Part shown: positions 1,790-58,356 of the stretch, in pieces
How the letters are laid out: every line of letters starts with the position of its first letter
Position numbering within the stretch: position 1 is the stretch's first letter
Assembly: GCF_002885955.2 (NCBI RefSeq)
Contig: NZ_POQS01000009.1
Location: 193,521-257,520 of the forward strand
Reading direction: 5' to 3'
DNA: 64,000 bases
Origin: Achromobacter pulmonis
GTDB taxonomy: Bacteria > Pseudomonadota > Gammaproteobacteria > Burkholderiales > Burkholderiaceae_B
Made by a program: the position numbers and the translations under genes
Notes under the pieces: generated by a model
Told to the model about the DNA's origin: nothing
The model's input: the letters and a program-made list of their open reading frames with translations, nothing else
Databases searched by the model: none

Positions 1790-2575
1790 TCAGTCTTCCA
1801 TGCCCGGGACGACGGTGGAGAAGCCGCCGTCCACGTGGGTGATTTCGCCCGTCACGCCGGCGGCCAGGTCCGACAGCATGAAGGCGGCGACGTTGCCCAC
1901 GTCTTCGATGGTGATGTTTCGGCGCAGGGGCGCCTGGGCCTCGACGAACTTCAGGATGGCCGAGAAGTCCTTGATGCCGCTGGCGGCCAGCGTCTTGATC
2001 GGGCCGGCGGAAATGCCGTTGGCGCGGATGCCGCGCGGGCCCAGCGCCGTGGCCAGGTAGCGTACGCTGGCTTCGAGCGAGGCCTTGGCCAGGCCCATGG
2101 TGTTGTAGTTGGGAACCACGCGCTCGGCGCCCAGGTAGGTCAGCGTCAGCACCGAGCCGTTGCGGCCTTCCATGAGCGGCAGGGCGGCCTTGGCCATGGC
2201 GGGGAAGCTGTAGGCCGAGATGTCGTGCGCCACGCGGAAGGCTTCGCGCGACAGGCCGTCGAGGAAGTTGCCGGCGATGGCTTCGCGCGGGGCGAAGCCG
2301 ATGGAATGCACCAGGCCGTCCAGGCCGTCCCAGTGCTGGCCGAGTTCGGCGAAGGCGGCTTCGATCTGGCTGTCCTCGGCCACGTCGCAGGGCAGCACGA
2401 TCTTGCTGCCGAATTCGGCGGCGAATTCGCTCACGCGGTCCTTGAAGCGGTCGCCCACGTAGGTGAACGCCAGTTCGGCGCCTTGCTGGTGACAGGCGCG
2501 CGCGATGCCGTAGGCGATGGAGCGGTTGGAAAGCACCCCGGTGACCAGGATGCGCTTGCCGGCGAGAAAGCCCAT
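1790..2575 (-). CDS. fabI: Enoyl-[acyl-carrier-protein] reductase (NADH), FabI
   Basis: A 261-residue SDR-fold enzyme that reduces enoyl-ACP in the last step of each type II fatty acid elongation cycle. Visible family features are the nucleotide-binding start ([17 protein letters not shown], residues 9-25), the [12 protein letters not shown] strand around 85-96, and the FabI active-site pattern with Tyr147, Tyr157 and Lys164 ([19 protein letters not shown]). Length matches E. coli FabI. It is read toward osmC and is separated from the upstream minus-strand lytic transglycosylase by an intrinsic terminator, so it should have its own promoter in 2576-2650. Confidence 0.97.
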
Positions 2576-2639
2576 ATTTCTATCCTTTGATTTTTTCCCT
2601 TCTGGAGACCGCCTATTTTAAAGAGTTTGGCGGCCCCTC

Positions 2640-2681
2640 CATTAAAAAGAAAAGGGCGCGCCCGTCGGGGTGCGCCCTTTT
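2640..2681 (-). terminator. Intrinsic terminator downstream of the lytic transglycosylase gene
   Basis: A perfect 10-bp stem (AAAAGGGCGC at 2650-2659 and GCGCCCTTTT at 2672-2681) with a 12-nt loop. Read on the minus strand it is followed by a T-rich tail. It lies 16 bp past the stop codon at 2697 and before fabI. Confidence 0.9.
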
Positions 2682-2696
2682 GCCGTGCCGTTGCGC

Positions 2697-4121
2697 TCAG
2701 CCCCGCGCGTTGGTGCCGGGGACCCGCAGCGGCGTGCCGACCTTCAGCGCGCTGCCCTTGAGGTTGTTCAGCGCGCGCAGCGCGTCGATCGAGGTGCCGT
2801 ATTGCTTGGCCAGCGAGTACAGCGTGTCGCCCTGGCGCACCTTGTGGGTGCGCACGTTGGGTCGGGCGCTGGCGACGCGGGCGCTTGCCACGCGCGCGGC
2901 GGGCGCCTGCTGGGCGCGGCCGCGCGTGGCCGGGGCCTTCTCGGCGGCGGGCGCCGCGTCCAGCACCGGCGGCGCCAGCGAGGCCAGCTGCACGTTGCCG
3001 GCGCTGTCGCCCGGCACCAGCAGGGACTGGCCGGAAGCGGATTTCTGGCGCGAACCGATGTCGTTGATCTGGCGCAGCCGGCTTTCGGTCACGCCGAAAC
3101 GCTTGGCGATCGAGGCGTAGGATTCGCCGCGGCGCGTGTGGTAGACCTTCCAGGCGCTCAGGTCGCCCTTGTAGTTGGTCAGGTTGGCGTTGAAGATTTC
3201 GACGCGGTCGGCCGGCAGCAGCAGGGTGGGGCCGTGGTCGCCGCGGATCAGCGGACGGTTGAACGAAGGGTTGAGCGCCTTGAATTCGTCCAGCGGCATT
3301 TCGGCCAGCTTGGCGGCGATTTCGAGGTCGATGTCGCTGTTCTTCTGCACCGTCACGAAGTAGGGCGTGTTGCCCACCGGCGGCAGGGCCACCGCATAGC
3401 GCTGCGGGTCGGCGATGATGTTCTTGATGGCCTGCAGCTTGGGCACGTAGTTGCGGGTCTCGTCGGGCATGCTCAGCGACAGGTAGTCGGTGCGCAGGCC
3501 GGCGGCCTCGTTCTTGGCCATGGCGCGCTGCACCGAGCCTTCGCCCCAGTTATACGAGGCCAGGGCCAGATACCAGTCGCCCTGCATTTCGAACAGTTTT
3601 TCCAGGTAGTCCAGCGCCGCGTTGGTCGAGGCGATGGGGTCGCGCCGCTCGTCGCGCCACCAGTCCTGCTTGAGGTTGAAATGCTGGCCGGTGGCCGGCA
3701 CGAACTGCCACAGGCCCGAGGCCTGCGAGCGCGACAGCGCGGTGGGGTTGTAGGCGCTTTCGACGAAGGGCAGCAGCGCCAGCTCGGTGGGCAGGCCGCG
3801 GCGGTTGATCTCGTCGACGATGAAATACAGGTACTTGCCGGCGCGTTCCGCCATGCGCTGCACCGACTCGGGGTGGGCCGCGTAGTAGTCGGTCCACTGC
3901 TGCGAGAGGTCGGTGTTCAGGTTGGGGATGGCGAAACCGCGGCGGATGCGGTCCCAGGCGTCGGCGGGAGGATTGGTGAGGTCCACCGTCCGGGAAGTGT
4001 CGCGGGCGATGTAGCGCCCTTGGGAATTGGTGGTGAGATTCTTGCTATCGGGGGATTTGGTTCCTGCGCAACCGGCGAGGACTGCCAGCATCAGCGGCAG
4101 AAGGAGTCGGGATAGATTCAT
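2697..4121 (-). CDS. mltD: MltD-like membrane-bound lytic murein transglycosylase with LysM domains
   Basis: 474 residues from ATG 4121, chosen because it begins directly with a lipoprotein signal (MNLSRLLLPLMLAVLAGCAG, lipobox Cys18). An upstream in-frame ATG would overlap gloB by 38 bp and bury the signal. An SLT domain spans roughly residues 90-215, with the predicted catalytic Glu121 in ESAYNP and the SGLWQF motif. At least two LysM modules follow: about 345-395 (VYHTRRGESYASIAKRFGV) and the C-terminal 430-474 (HKVRQGDTLYSLAKQYGTS). The enzyme should cleave peptidoglycan glycan strands while anchored in the outer membrane. It follows gloB by 7 bp and is probably co-transcribed. Confidence 0.92.
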   Translation of the reverse strand: MNLSRLLLPLMLAVLAGCAGTKSPDSKNLTTNSQGRYIARDTSRTVDLTNPPADAWDRIRRGFAIPNLNTDLSQQWTDYYAAHPESVQRMAERAGKYLYFIVDEINRRGLPTELALLPFVESAYNPTALSRSQASGLWQFVPATGQHFNLKQDWWRDERRDPIASTNAALDYLEKLFEMQGDWYLALASYNWGEGSVQRAMAKNEAAGLRTDYLSLSMPDETRNYVPKLQAIKNIIADPQRYAVALPPVGNTPYFVTVQKNSDIDLEIAAKLAEMPLDEFKALNPSFNRPLIRGDHGPTLLLPADRVEIFNANLTNYKGDLSAWKVYHTRRGESYASIAKRFGVTESRLRQINDIGSRQKSASGQSLLVPGDSAGNVQLASLAPPVLDAAPAAEKAPATRGRAQQAPAARVASARVASARPNVRTHKVRQGDTLYSLAKQYGTSIDALRALNNLKGSALKVGTPLRVPGTNARG

Positions 4122-10681: not shown

Positions 10682-11404
10682 ATGCGCCAGATCATCTTTG
10701 ACACCGAAACCACGGGACTGGATCCCGCCCAGGGCCACCGCATCGTCGAAATCGGCTGCGTGGAGCTGGTCAACCGGATGGCCACGGGCAACAACCTGCA
10801 CATCTACCTGAACCCGGACCGCGACAGCGACCCCGAGGCGCTGGCGGTGCACGGCCTGACCACCGAATTCCTGTCCGACAAGCCGCGCTTTGCCGACATC
10901 GCCGATGAATTCGTGCAGTTCATCCAGGGTGCCGAGCTGATCGCGCACAACGCCGCGTTCGACGTGAAATTCTTCAACGCCGAACTGGCCAGGACCGGCC
11001 GCGGCCCGATCAGCGATTTCTGCGAGACGGTCACCGACTCGCTGCTGCACGCGCGTTCGCTGTTCCCCGGCAAGCGCAACTCGCTGGATGCGCTGTGCGA
11101 CCGTTTCGGCATTTCCAACGCCCACCGCACGCTGCACGGCGCCTTGCTCGACTCGCAGCTGCTGGCGGAAGTCTGGCTGGCCATGACGCGCGGCCAGGAC
11201 GCGCTGCTGATCGACGTCGAGGAGGGCGACTCGGCGGGCGCCGACGGCCTGGTGCTGGGCAGGTTCGACGCCTCCGGCCTGCCGGTGATCAAGGCCGGCG
11301 ACGAAGACCTGGCCGAGCACGAAGCCTATCTGGCCGCGCTGGACAAGGCCGTGGGCGGCGAATGCATCTGGCGTAAACTGGACGCGCCGGCGCCGGCCGC
11401 ATGA
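10682..11404 (+). CDS. dnaQ: DNA polymerase III epsilon subunit, 3'-5' proofreading exonuclease
   Basis: 240 residues. The ExoI motif FDTETTGLDP (Asp7, Glu9) opens the protein. ExoII lies in AHNAAFDVKFFNAEL, and ExoIII-epsilon is recognisable in HRTLHGALLDSQLLAEV with the catalytic His and Asp. The DEDDh set is complete, so proofreading activity is expected. The C-terminal tail (about residues 190-240) would bind the polymerase alpha subunit. It is followed by tRNA-Val on the same strand. Confidence 0.96.
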   Translation: MRQIIFDTETTGLDPAQGHRIVEIGCVELVNRMATGNNLHIYLNPDRDSDPEALAVHGLTTEFLSDKPRFADIADEFVQFIQGAELIAHNAAFDVKFFNAELARTGRGPISDFCETVTDSLLHARSLFPGKRNSLDALCDRFGISNAHRTLHGALLDSQLLAEVWLAMTRGQDALLIDVEEGDSAGADGLVLGRFDASGLPVIKAGDEDLAEHEAYLAALDKAVGGECIWRKLDAPAPAA

Positions 11405-11420
11405 AGTTTTTCGGGGTGAC

Positions 11421-11450
11421 TTGCACACGTTCAAAAAAACGTGCTAATAT
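11421..11450 (+). promoter_or_regulatory. Sigma70-type promoter for tRNA-Val
   Basis: TTGCAC (11421-11426) and TAATAT (11445-11450) are separated by 18 bp, a good match to the sigma70 consensus, and lie 13 bp before the tRNA 5' end. A GC-rich segment follows the -10, as expected for stringently controlled stable-RNA promoters. Confidence 0.75.
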
Positions 11451-11463
11451 TTCGCCTCTTTCG

Positions 11464-11538
11464 GGGTGGTTAGCTCAGTGGTAGAGCACTGCCTTCACAC
11501 GGCAGGGGTCACTGGTTCGAACCCAGTACTACCCACCA
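11464..11538 (+). tRNA. tRNA-Val (anticodon CAC)
   Basis: The 75-nt cloverleaf is easily drawn by eye. The acceptor GGGTGGT pairs with ACTACCC, the D-arm is AGCTCAGTGGTAGAGC, and the anticodon stem CTGCC/GGCAG encloses loop TTCACAC with anticodon CAC. The T-arm is CTGGTTCGAACCCAG, and the 3' CCA is encoded. It reads GTG valine codons. tRNA 3' ends are common integration sites, and the next gene downstream is a defence-type gene, but no second copy of the tRNA 3' end was found. Confidence 0.97.
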
Positions 11539-11613
11539 AAGACCCTTGAGAGACAACGCCAGGCCACCAGCCGGCCGTTGTCGGCGTCCAAGGTAAAACG
11601 ACGCAGCAAAAAT

Positions 11614-11640
11614 AGCCAACCCTTGCGGTTGGCTTTTTTG
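11614..11640 (+). terminator. Intrinsic terminator after tRNA-Val
   Basis: An 8-bp perfect stem (AGCCAACC at 11614-11621, GGTTGGCT at 11627-11634) with a 5-nt loop, followed by a T run (11633-11645, interrupted by a single G). It should end the tRNA-Val transcript about 75 nt past the mature 3' end. Confidence 0.92.
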
Positions 11641-11956
11641 TTTTTCGCGCGGTCTTGGGGATAGTGGAAACCGCGAAGGCGACAAGAACCGGGACGGGTG
11701 GATGTATTCAGGCGCATCAGGTCCCGGTACGATTTTTCACATTGCAGTGAGGCGGGGAAAACGGTTTCAGCGACCCGGAATAGGGACCAGAAAGAGGACT
11801 GAACAAGGGGCCGAAAAGGGAAAGCGCCCTGGTAAGGGCGCTTTCGGGGTACTGCATAAGGGAAGCCGGATGTCCGCTCTTGGAGACTACGTCTCGTACT
11901 AGGCTAGCCAACGATTCGCGGCTTTTCACTTCCGATTATAGGGGCGGGGAACTCGC
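11641..11956 (+). ncRNA. Hairpin-rich non-coding leader upstream of the Abi gene (candidate structured RNA)
   Basis: About 316 bp without a convincing reading frame, with lower GC and different texture from its neighbours. Several inverted repeats are packed in order: CGCGGT/ACCGCG (11648-11653 with 11670-11675), a perfect 8-bp ACCGGGAC/GTCCCGGT (11688-11695 with 11721-11728, 25-nt loop), a perfect 11-bp hairpin (11820-11845, GGTA loop), and a short GAGAC/GTCTC pair near 11883-11895. The 11-bp hairpin has no T run on the plus strand, so it is not a simple terminator there. Conserved RNAs upstream of Abi_2-type genes have been described (the abiF RNA motif, from memory), which makes an RNA partner plausible. 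This is inference; strand and ends are undetermined. Confidence 0.4.
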
Positions 11957-12769
11957 ATGTCTAATGACGCAGATTTTGCCGATTTGGTCCGGTTTCTGTC
12001 GCTTGAGCGGCTGGCTACGTTCCAGGCTATTACGGGGTCTACGGGAGAGGCGATCTCGCTGCATCAGCAGACCTTGCGCCTCGGGTCGCAATTAATGATG
12101 GTCACGGCCGTCATCGAGGTGGCTTTACGCAATGCCGTCTATGAAAGATTGGAGGGCTACTACGGACAGCCCGATTGGCTTATAGCCCCACCCGCCACCC
12201 TGGTATGGGTCCCATCCGAGTCCGCCAAGATCAAGCAGGCGATAAAGAGTGCGCGGCGGGAAAAATACGCAAAGATGACTCTGCCCCAGAAGCGTCATCT
12301 CGACTCTCTTATCCCTGGCGGCGCCCCTGCCGGCCCAGGAAAAATGGCGTATCAGCGTCTAGTGGCGGCGAGGCAGGCACAGATCGCTGTCCCGGTAGGC
12401 CAAGTCATGGCGCAACTGACTTTTTTCTTTTGGAAGCGCCTATATTCGAAAGACTATGCCAACGTGCTCTGGACTCCCCTGAAAAACATCTTCCCGGATA
12501 AGCGGCTGACGCGCGCCGACATCGCAACGCAGCTTGAACGCCTGTATCAGAGCCGTAACCGTGTGGCCCATCATGAGCCGATATTCGGGCGCCGCTTGCA
12601 GGAAACACTGGAGGCCATCGAGTTTTTTCTGAACCATTTCGACGGTAAAGACGCCAATGGCATTCCGCATATCAGCAAGTTGCTGAGCGACGACCTGGAA
12701 CGTCTGAAGAAATCAGCCGCCGAACTGGATGGCCGCATCAAGTCATTCAAAGTGCCTGGCGAGAGCTGA
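11957..12769 (+). CDS. Abi-like protein (Abi_2/AbiD-AbiF type) with HEPN RNase motif
   Basis: 270 residues from ATG 11957. The N-terminal half contains the family segment TAVIEVALRNAVYERLEGYYG. The C-terminal half carries RNRVAHHEPIF, an R-x4-H HEPN ribonuclease motif (Arg200, His205). Abi_2 proteins cause abortive infection, and HEPN domains usually act as RNases against tRNA or mRNA. Composition is clearly less GC-rich than the surroundings (many AAA, TTT and ATA-type codons), which suggests horizontal acquisition. It stands alone between tRNA-Val and a small membrane-protein gene, with no protein antitoxin beside it. The long structured leader directly upstream could be its RNA partner. 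Confidence 0.8.
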   Translation: MSNDADFADLVRFLSLERLATFQAITGSTGEAISLHQQTLRLGSQLMMVTAVIEVALRNAVYERLEGYYGQPDWLIAPPATLVWVPSESAKIKQAIKSARREKYAKMTLPQKRHLDSLIPGGAPAGPGKMAYQRLVAARQAQIAVPVGQVMAQLTFFFWKRLYSKDYANVLWTPLKNIFPDKRLTRADIATQLERLYQSRNRVAHHEPIFGRRLQETLEAIEFFLNHFDGKDANGIPHISKLLSDDLERLKKSAAELDGRIKSFKVPGES

Positions 12770-12916
12770 TTTTGGGCTGGCCCGGGCTTCTACGGGCTCA
12801 ATTGTTGATATTGCACAACCCCGCGCGCGCCGATTGAGCCGCGCGGCCTGCCAGCTGTCTATGATGGATACCGCGGGGACATATCCACAATAAACCCGCG
12901 CAAACTGGAGATGGCG

Positions 12917-13084
12917 ATGTTCGCGAATACCAATACCATGATCATCATCATCGTCACGGCCGTGGCCCTCATGCTGGTGGGCTTCGGGCTGCGTGACCGC
13001 AATATCGGCATGGGGCTGATGGGGCTGGGCCTGGTGACGGCGCTGGGCACCATTATCTACAAGGCGTACATCACGTTTTATTGA
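12917..13084 (+). CDS. Small two-helix membrane protein, uncharacterised
   Basis: 55 residues from ATG 12917. I prefer it to the ATG at 12911 because GGAG at 12907-12910 is then 6 bp upstream. The sequence has two hydrophobic segments, [20 protein letters not shown] and [17 protein letters not shown], separated by the polar turn RDRNI, so a hairpin in the inner membrane is likely. I do not recognise the family. The end overlaps the convergent DUF188 gene by 14 bp. Codon usage and the well-placed ribosome-binding site support a real gene; no function can be proposed. Confidence 0.65.
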
Positions 13085-58044: not shown

Positions 58045-58091
58045 CATTCGCCAGCTGCAGCCATCAACGCTGCAGTCCAGATTTTTCAGTT

Positions 58092-58272
58092 TGTCCCTGC
58101 CGTGTTCGTGACTAGGCCATACATTCTCTGAACCTATGTCTTATGGCATATTGGTTGCGGGAGTGCAGAGCTGGAGTGATCGTCTCTCGCAGACGAACCC
58201 GATGCTCTACGGAACGCGACCACCTTGAACCTCAGGGTTCGAGATGCCGGCCTTGACGGCACAGGCGGGGCA
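58092..58272 (+). ncRNA. ssrS: 6S RNA
   Basis: Directly downstream of zapA, where ssrS lies in most proteobacteria. The 3' half contains CACCTTGAACC...GGGTTCGAG at about 58220-58243, matching the conserved CACCTTGAACCAAGGGTTCAAG of E. coli 6S RNA. The closing stem can be drawn between CTGCCGTG...ACTAGGCC near 58097-58118 and GGCCTTGACGGCA near 58249-58262. The size of about 180 nt fits. 6S RNA binds the sigma70 RNA polymerase holoenzyme in stationary phase. End coordinates are approximate. Confidence 0.85.
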
Positions 58273-58356
58273 TCTATCCCAGCGGGCCTGCCATCGGCGC
58301 AGGTCCGCGCCGGGCGCCCCACCCCTCTCCATCGTCCTCTCTCCTAGGACTCGTCC

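Follow-up and report, generated by a model that had tools for sequence, protein, structure and literature searches.

A conserved minus-strand RNA gene head-to-head with a HEPN Abi gene in Achromobacter pulmonis, a probable toxin-antitoxin-like defence pair

In type III toxin-antitoxin systems (ToxIN, CptIN, TenpIN), a structured antitoxin RNA is combined with a ribonuclease toxin of the ToxN fold, and the RNA repeats lie upstream in the same operon. The antitoxin is also an RNA in AbiF systems: AbiFr is reported to be bound as one molecule per AbiF monomer (PMC12737573, where the PbAbiF structure is named as PDB 8VZ6), and RCd22, from a C. difficile prophage, is reported to neutralise AbiF-Cd by binding (PMC12373285). 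According to the latter source, RCd22 lies upstream of its solitary Abi_2-type HEPN toxin gene on the same strand, is co-transcribed with it through a terminator, and carries two motif copies; the structure of its stem matters, the sequence of the stem less so. Abi2, AbiF, and AbiD have been grouped with Swt1 among HEPN proteins (PMC3710099), AbiD/F has been placed near the root of Cas13 (PMC12165695), and AbiD/F proteins have been proposed as Cas13 ancestors (PMC12165695, PMC12737573). A distant AbiF/D relative, the E. coli plasmid-borne Abi defence gene PD-T4-5, acts by abortive infection and is described as a gene without an RNA (PMC9519451); we compare it here by that description. Among the matches listed in a literature search, no description of a divergent RNA at Abi_2 genes was recognised in titles or abstract openings.

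Here, we analyzed a stretch of 64,000 nucleotides from A. pulmonis (contig NZ_POQS01000009.1; hereafter, the window), in which an earlier reading of the letters alone (the sequence-only reading) had proposed an RNA-HEPN unit formed by an Abi gene and its leader RNA. Comparison between genomes shows that a predicted RNA gene, conserved and structured, stands on the minus strand head-to-head with the HEPN Abi gene and that the two are found together. The pair is best read as related to AbiF and abiF RNA yet transcribed head-to-head, and it probably forms a two-part, toxin-antitoxin-like defence module of a HEPN ribonuclease toxin and an RNA antitoxin.

The Abi gene and the RNA gene on the opposite strand

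The sequence-only reading had described a solitary Abi-like protein of 270 residues with an R200-x4-H205 HEPN motif, low in GC relative to its surroundings, next to a tRNA-Val and without an adjoining protein antitoxin, all of which was borne out (Table 1). The R-x4-H motif of AbiD/AbiF-type proteins is present as RNRVAH and is conserved in the family. In an alignment of eight subfamily members, R200-N-R-x-A-H205-H-E-P is invariant, and within R200-H205 only V203 varies (I or L); over 31 rows including the window, at identities down to 19%, R200, N201, H205, H206, E207, and P208 never change. The protein scored 18.3 bits (E 0.003) against Pfam Abi_2 (PF07751), under the curated cut-off of 25.6 bits, which was reached by two of six scanned relatives (L015, 30.5; L020, 38.2), the other four falling below. 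It scored 19.8 bits against Pfam HEPN_Swt1, under the cut-off of 27.5. The nearest PADLOC model was PD-T4-5 (E 9.8e-7, 26.3 bits, residues 1-213), which is displayed without a curated cut-off. An NCBIfam search with the protein gave no match and a PDB sequence search gave 0 matches, while the window's own genome held one match to it. GC content is 54-58% over 11400-12899, against 64-74% in the flanks, with transition windows at 61%. Besides the Abi gene, the only ORF of at least 80 aa in 11434-13071 is one that overlaps it, and the shorter upstream ORFs include none common to the window, L002, and L071. Elsewhere in the window, a 6S RNA (RF00013) was found at 58091-58275 (+) with 84.2 bits.

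The 316 bp upstream of the gene had been taken for the leader of the Abi mRNA, a claim that did not hold: the promoter-like site is on the minus strand, and only 11807-11956 (about 150 nt) is conserved in the closest relative. In a promoter scan of 11540-12100, the sole promoter-like site was found on the minus strand at 11963-11935, with an 11/12 match. The perfect 11-bp hairpin noted in the supposed leader does exist, yet it appears to be the terminator of the minus-strand RNA. The U-run of this terminator is short in the window, and our promoter/terminator scan does not report it. An 8-bp stem at 11688-11695/11721-11728 is likewise present, but it lies outside the block shared with Pollutimonas harenae and thus does not belong to the conserved unit.

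Table 1. Predicted features of the RNA/Abi locus in the window
Feature	Position	Strand	Remarks
tRNA-Val	11464-11538		adjoins the Abi block
Block common to the window and Pollutimonas harenae	11807-12770		begins slightly past the RNA terminator and reaches the Abi stop
Divergent noncoding RNA gene, about 120 nt	11814-11933	-	limits deduced from the positions of -10 box and terminator
RNA terminator hairpin (perfect 11-bp)	11820-11845	-	followed by CCUUUU at 11819-11814
Stem P1, 3' arm, UCCGGCUU in the RNA	11863-11870	-	one C-C mismatch in the window
Stem P1b, 3' arm, GCGGAC	11872-11877	-	
Inner hairpin GAGAC-GUA-GUCUC	11883-11895	-	window and nearest relative only
Stem P1b, 5' arm, GUUGGC	11907-11912	-	conserved G-G mismatch inside
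Stem P1, 5' arm, AAGCCGCG in the RNA	11917-11924	-	
RNA promoter, -10 box TATAAT	11935-11940	-	17-nt spacer to the -35 box
RNA promoter, -35 box TAGACA	11958-11963	-	overlaps the Abi start codon, 11957-11959
Abi-family HEPN protein gene, 270 aa	11957-12769	+	ORF listing and profile matches; predicted ribonuclease toxin
HEPN catalytic motif R200-N-R-V-A-H205	12554-12571	+	sequence; invariant in the window and 30 relatives (alignment A3)

The closest relative is that of P. harenae (L002), with 79% protein identity. Over the common block, 776 of 972 positions are identical (80%), and this figure rises to 59 of 60 at 11866-11925, inside the RNA, which points to a functional noncoding element. No comparable similarity to P. 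harenae was found elsewhere in 11381-12950. With a promoter and a terminator of its own, the RNA has the appearance of a separate gene read from the opposite strand, not of an Abi leader.

The RNA and the Abi gene also look to have been acquired as one unit beside the tRNA-Val, since the same chromosomal site is empty in congeners. In 10 of the 12 congeners compared, the two flanks (up to 11539-11650 and from about 12900) are present and no part of the Abi block separates them, and the remaining two show the left flank alone in the compared DNA. Several other members are plasmid-borne (L071-L077). No clear terminal repeats were seen around the block, and no integrase-like ORF of at least 80 aa is present in 11434-13071. 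A terminator-like bidirectional hairpin lies at 11614-11634, behind the tRNA-Val; in the comparison with several congeners, the Abi block is inserted just past it.

Conservation of the RNA and its association with the Abi gene

Subfamily members were drawn from plasmids, from 268 genomes of the window's family, and from 398 genomes of the family of a Cupriavidus genome. Eighteen intact genes were retained (the window, L002, L061, L071-L073, L075, L076, and L083-L092), with two further full-length plasmid matches (H9 and H13) outside this set. The RNA alignment holds 19 sequences, i.e., these 18 loci and the frame-broken L077; the near copies L074 and L094 are absent from it, as is L097, a C-terminally cut second copy in genome G841 that has an RNA.

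Covariation, the check that the sequence-only reading had named for its RNA, was found. The 27 pairs of the three helices are 93.3% paired over the 19 sequences, and 16 pairs and 52 cells have changed on both sides, which was matched by 0 of 500 shuffles; the shuffles keep relatedness in place, and the alignment tested is also the source of the structure; the margin is large. When the partners were slid by 1 to 3 columns, pairing fell to 35-53%. Stem P1 is 98% paired, with five of its eight pairs changed on both sides, and the terminator hairpin is 96.7% paired, with changes on both sides at four of eight. The pairing of P1b in the window was read directly, as alignment A2 shifts the window by one column there. 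A possible pseudoknot between GGCAG and the 3' linker, weighed by eye for one group, was not kept in others and was dropped.

The strand under selection was indicated by wobble pairs, with 54 G-U cells compared to seven A-C cells in favor of the minus strand. Consistent with this, the RNAalifold consensus reached -32.5 kcal/mol on the minus strand and -19.8 on its complement. Folding the window alone left the strand undecided (-44.6 kcal/mol for plus, -40.6 for minus) and was modestly unusual, with z-scores of -2.68 for the minus strand and -1.87 for the plus strand; the significance of the fold therefore comes from the comparison between genomes. A minus-strand promoter scoring at least 9/12 was found at the expected place in all 19 members (0.4% of shuffles), in L077 with a 16-nt spacer and in L061 with an 18-nt spacer. 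None of the 19 has a plus-strand promoter of that score within 180 nt of the gene, and the Abi gene's own promoter was not found.

A second covariance model was trained on 17 sequences, with both the window and L002 withheld. This model ranked 11933-11815(-) at the top of the 64-kb window (E 6.4e-5; next match, 0.17) and likewise at the top of the genome as a whole (E 0.007; next match, 0.07), and it found the L002 RNA at E 1.1e-7. It is the sole leave-out test, because the full model was trained on the genes concerned; genome scans with the full model thus gauge specificity and extra copies, not presence. The E-values of the full model are rough: matches at E 0.01 or better occur in 124 of 398 and 56 of 268 genomes, and those under the line drawn are taken as noise.

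In the window's family, any Abi relative was found in 12 of the 268 genomes, three of which have a full-length subfamily gene. The full RNA model gave matches below E 1e-7 in exactly these three (G207, G192, and the window's genome), all of which contributed to its training set, the next match being at 4.8e-5. Among the 42 other genomes of the window's genus, the subfamily gene is absent at E 1e-5, and a distant Abi relative occurs in four. Across the class, a scan of 369 genomes at E 1e-25 returned the window's own genome only, and in viral contigs 23 stretches matched a pattern, none of them coding for an Abi relative. Subfamily protein matches at E 1e-25 were found in at least 14 of the 398 genomes of the second family, these scans taking the best 6 protein and best 10 RNA candidates per genome, so that their counts are lower bounds.

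A minus-strand RNA with promoter and hairpins lies beside all 18 intact subfamily genes. The converse does not hold. In the 398 genomes, 21 RNA places score above 58 bits, a line set post hoc in the gap between 58.6 and 40.6 bits. Ten of them adjoin intact genes, and these are all 10 intact genes found there; three adjoin broken genes, six adjoin truncated N-terminal remnants (L151, L156, and L157 recognised by eye in three-frame translations; L152, L153, and L155 by HMM or tblastn), and two have no remnant. Genomes G1009 and G1019 have broken gene pieces only, without an RNA match above the line. Hence, an intact gene without the RNA was seen in 0 of 18 cases and the RNA without an intact gene at 11 of 21 places, an asymmetry that would follow from a protective role of the RNA against the protein. 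Of two matches just below the line, both judged by eye, L159 (39.9 bits) resembles a genuine orphan RNA, unlike L158 (40.6 bits). RNA copies without a recognisable Abi gene alongside are those of L150, L154, and L159, the last of which adjoins a reading frame that resembles, by eye, a tyrosine recombinase. At L071, on a Cupriavidus oxalaticus plasmid, a SIR2 family protein is annotated at 2026-3783, just upstream of the Abi/RNA pair.

Relation to abiF RNAs and to distant Abi relatives

The locus resembles AbiF and its RNA antitoxin in having an Abi_2/AbiD/F-related HEPN protein with the R-x4-H motif and a small hairpin RNA adjoining it. Like AbiF-Cd, the protein is a solitary Abi_2-type HEPN protein accompanied by an RNA, and R202/H207 of AbiF-Cd play the role expected of R200/H205 here (PMC12373285). 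The Rfam abiF model (RF03085; gathering score, 37 bits) nevertheless found nothing in 11380-13000 up to E 5, in 13 subfamily loci including the window's up to E 2, or in 13 distinct distant loci. The same tool recovered, as a positive control, the abiF RNA of cyanophage S-CREM1 (CCCCCUAUGCCUCUCAACGAUGCACAAACCUGGGGGU) at 52.2 bits, an RNA already published (PMC9964418). The window RNA is longer, consisting of a bulged hairpin of about 62 nt plus a terminator, compared to a model of 37 positions, and it keeps the abiF layout without the core, which is GUYGGC...GCGGAC here and GCCUCU...AUGC in S-CREM1. In addition, it is a single copy with its own promoter on the strand opposite to the gene, a contrast to AbiF-type systems that is drawn from RCd22 alone. 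As for the unit proposed by the sequence-only reading, the pairing of an RNA with a HEPN nuclease is well supported by covariation, co-occurrence, and the match of RNA class to protein clade described below, while its leader arrangement and its identity with Rfam abiF do not.

Other short hairpins are found on the divergent strand beside many of the distant Abi relatives, which have 20-30% identity. Based on patterns written after reading the sequences, these hairpins were sorted into classes A to F. Class A has the layout and the GCCUCU...AUGC core in common with the S-CREM1 RNA, and class B nearly so; both therefore look like abiF RNAs below the reach of Rfam. In alignment A5, made up of 24 sequences from four classes (A, B, D, and E; classes C and F stand outside, as do the near copies L032 and L033), 10 pairs reach 91.3% pairing and six have changed on both sides, compared to 0 of 500 shuffles. 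A minus-strand promoter of at least 9/12 occurs in 25 of 62 distant loci (shuffles, 7.7%) and a plus-strand one in 1 of 62, and the outer stem is strong (score of at least 11; shuffles, 9.9%) in 29 of 62, proportions that make the claim for the wider family weaker than that for the subfamily.

When the seven RNA classes are mapped onto a tree of 70 proteins, 7 changes suffice (minimum, 6), compared to a shuffled mean of 44.1 (0 of 200 shuffles as low); with class labels set post hoc, and 18 of the 70 rows labelled by eye (four C, five F, three A, five D, and L177), the tree shows a clustering of labels, not a blind classification. Outside the tree are 13 of 64 distinct distant loci, either unclassed or with too short a protein. 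Class C spans proteins from Pseudomonadota and Actinomycetota as well as one encoded on an E. coli plasmid. That plasmid, p602A1-8K (L177), carries an Abi gene that matches the PADLOC PD-T4-5 model at E 8.6e-16, with a class C hairpin RNA at about 998-862 on the minus strand, where a near-consensus divergent promoter (TTGACG-17-TATAAT) and a terminator of 20 pairs are also located. E. coli plasmid pDETEC28 (L178) has an Abi fragment beside a class C-like RNA stretch that seems, by eye, to have lost its promoter and half its terminator; among the matches listed, further small plasmids of E. coli and Salmonella have similarity to this same portion of the Abi protein. Class F comprises distant Abi proteins (RNRVMH or RNRVFH) with their own divergent hairpin RNA (L056-L059, L065, and L068), and is represented in the window's genus by four of the other 42 genomes and elsewhere in the family by two more.

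Proposed mode of action and alternatives

By analogy with AbiF/AbiFr and AbiF-Cd/RCd22, the Abi protein would be a dimeric HEPN ribonuclease. The RNA, presumably made in excess and folded into a bulged hairpin, would bind the dimer and block the active site at R200/H205, as we infer from the AbiF systems. Phage infection that lowered or displaced the RNA would then free the nuclease and stop the cell. The divergent layout suggests a second possible brake, in that RNA polymerase at the RNA promoter would occupy the toxin start region, and firing across it may lower toxin expression by collision or occlusion. Binding and silencing of the HEPN dimer by the RNA, as in AbiF, appears to be the most likely mechanism, and the shared distribution of RNA class and protein clade is in keeping with it. 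Counting against the module as a whole are the placement of the RNA on the opposite strand, unlike the same-strand RCd22, and the missing Rfam match, along with the C-C mismatch of P1 in the window, the short U-run, and the slightly stabler plus strand when folded alone. The locus is not arranged like a type III system, in which the RNA would lie upstream in the toxin operon on the same strand: the predicted promoters are on the minus strand in 19 of 19 members and on the plus strand in none, and here a predicted HEPN toxin is combined with a single divergent RNA.

Type I-like antisense action, in which the RNA would pair with the 5' untranslated region of the Abi mRNA to block translation or trigger decay, seems unlikely. 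The leader of an Abi mRNA starting upstream of 11933 would be complementary to the whole RNA, and the Abi start codon is overlapped by the RNA promoter; antisense action keeps a share of the probability because the toxin's own promoter was not found in the 19 members. Such complementarity arises automatically, however, and does not depend on a conserved fold, yet conservation extends to fold, bulge, and mismatch, G-U pairs are tolerated on the RNA strand alone (54 versus 7), the RNA class follows the protein clade, and AbiF systems are reported to work through RNA-protein contact (PMC12373285, PMC12737573). The two modes could also act together. That the RNA is instead an activator, or a guide or sensor, for the nuclease, as in Cas13, recalls the proposed ancestry of Cas13 in AbiD/F and would agree with an RNA and a protein that appear cognate. 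We regard this as quite improbable, since no spacer-like variable stretch of constant length was found, the variable part being a paired hairpin with compensatory changes, and an inhibitor better fits genes that, among those examined, never occur intact without the RNA while the RNA occurs without them.

A plus-strand leader acting in cis on the Abi mRNA, in the manner of a riboswitch-like attenuator, would be in keeping with the good fold of the window's plus strand alone and with RCd22, which is reported to work partly in this way (PMC12373285). We rejected it, and rate it as very improbable indeed, on the wobble asymmetry, the consensus energies, and promoters of at least 9/12 on the minus strand only. 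Least credible to us is that the stretch has no RNA function, being a DNA-level element (the end of a mobile element, an att site, or a regulator site) or a small protein gene. The block does resemble an insertion at a tRNA-adjacent site, and a 70-codon minus-strand ORF at 11717-11929 overlaps the RNA, with its first 22 or so residues recurring in a 25-codon ORF of L002. Covariation with G-U pairs on one strand and -10 and -35 boxes at near-fixed spacing are nonetheless features of an RNA gene. Among upstream ORFs of at least 20 aa over the RNA in the window, L002, and L071, no small protein is common to the three loci, as those of the window and L002 end differently and L071 has none alike, so this candidate was discarded for want of a common reading; a mobile element also fits poorly with the lack of clear terminal repeats and, in 11434-13071, of an integrase-like ORF of at least 80 aa.

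Returning to the toxin-antitoxin-like pair, we consider the case evenly balanced for a broader proposal: that it is one class of a large and mostly unrecognised set of head-to-head RNA/HEPN pairs in Pseudomonadota and Actinomycetota, in which Abi_2/PD-T4-5-like proteins would each have their own divergent hairpin RNA, in seven classes, co-inherited with the protein clade and not with the host. Within the class of the window, toxin start codon and RNA promoter would be merged, so that antitoxin synthesis would obstruct toxin synthesis. Many of the relatives listed are annotated merely as Abi family or hypothetical proteins. If the proposal is true, a divergent RNA would explain how cells tolerate Abi proteins and would give a simple rule for finding such RNAs. 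It would also affect cloning, as a construct trimmed to the start codon would lose the antitoxin promoter. Finally, RNAs associated with AbiD/F have been proposed as forerunners of Cas13 guides, and the classes would provide a natural cognate/non-cognate series for studying RNA recognition by HEPN nucleases.
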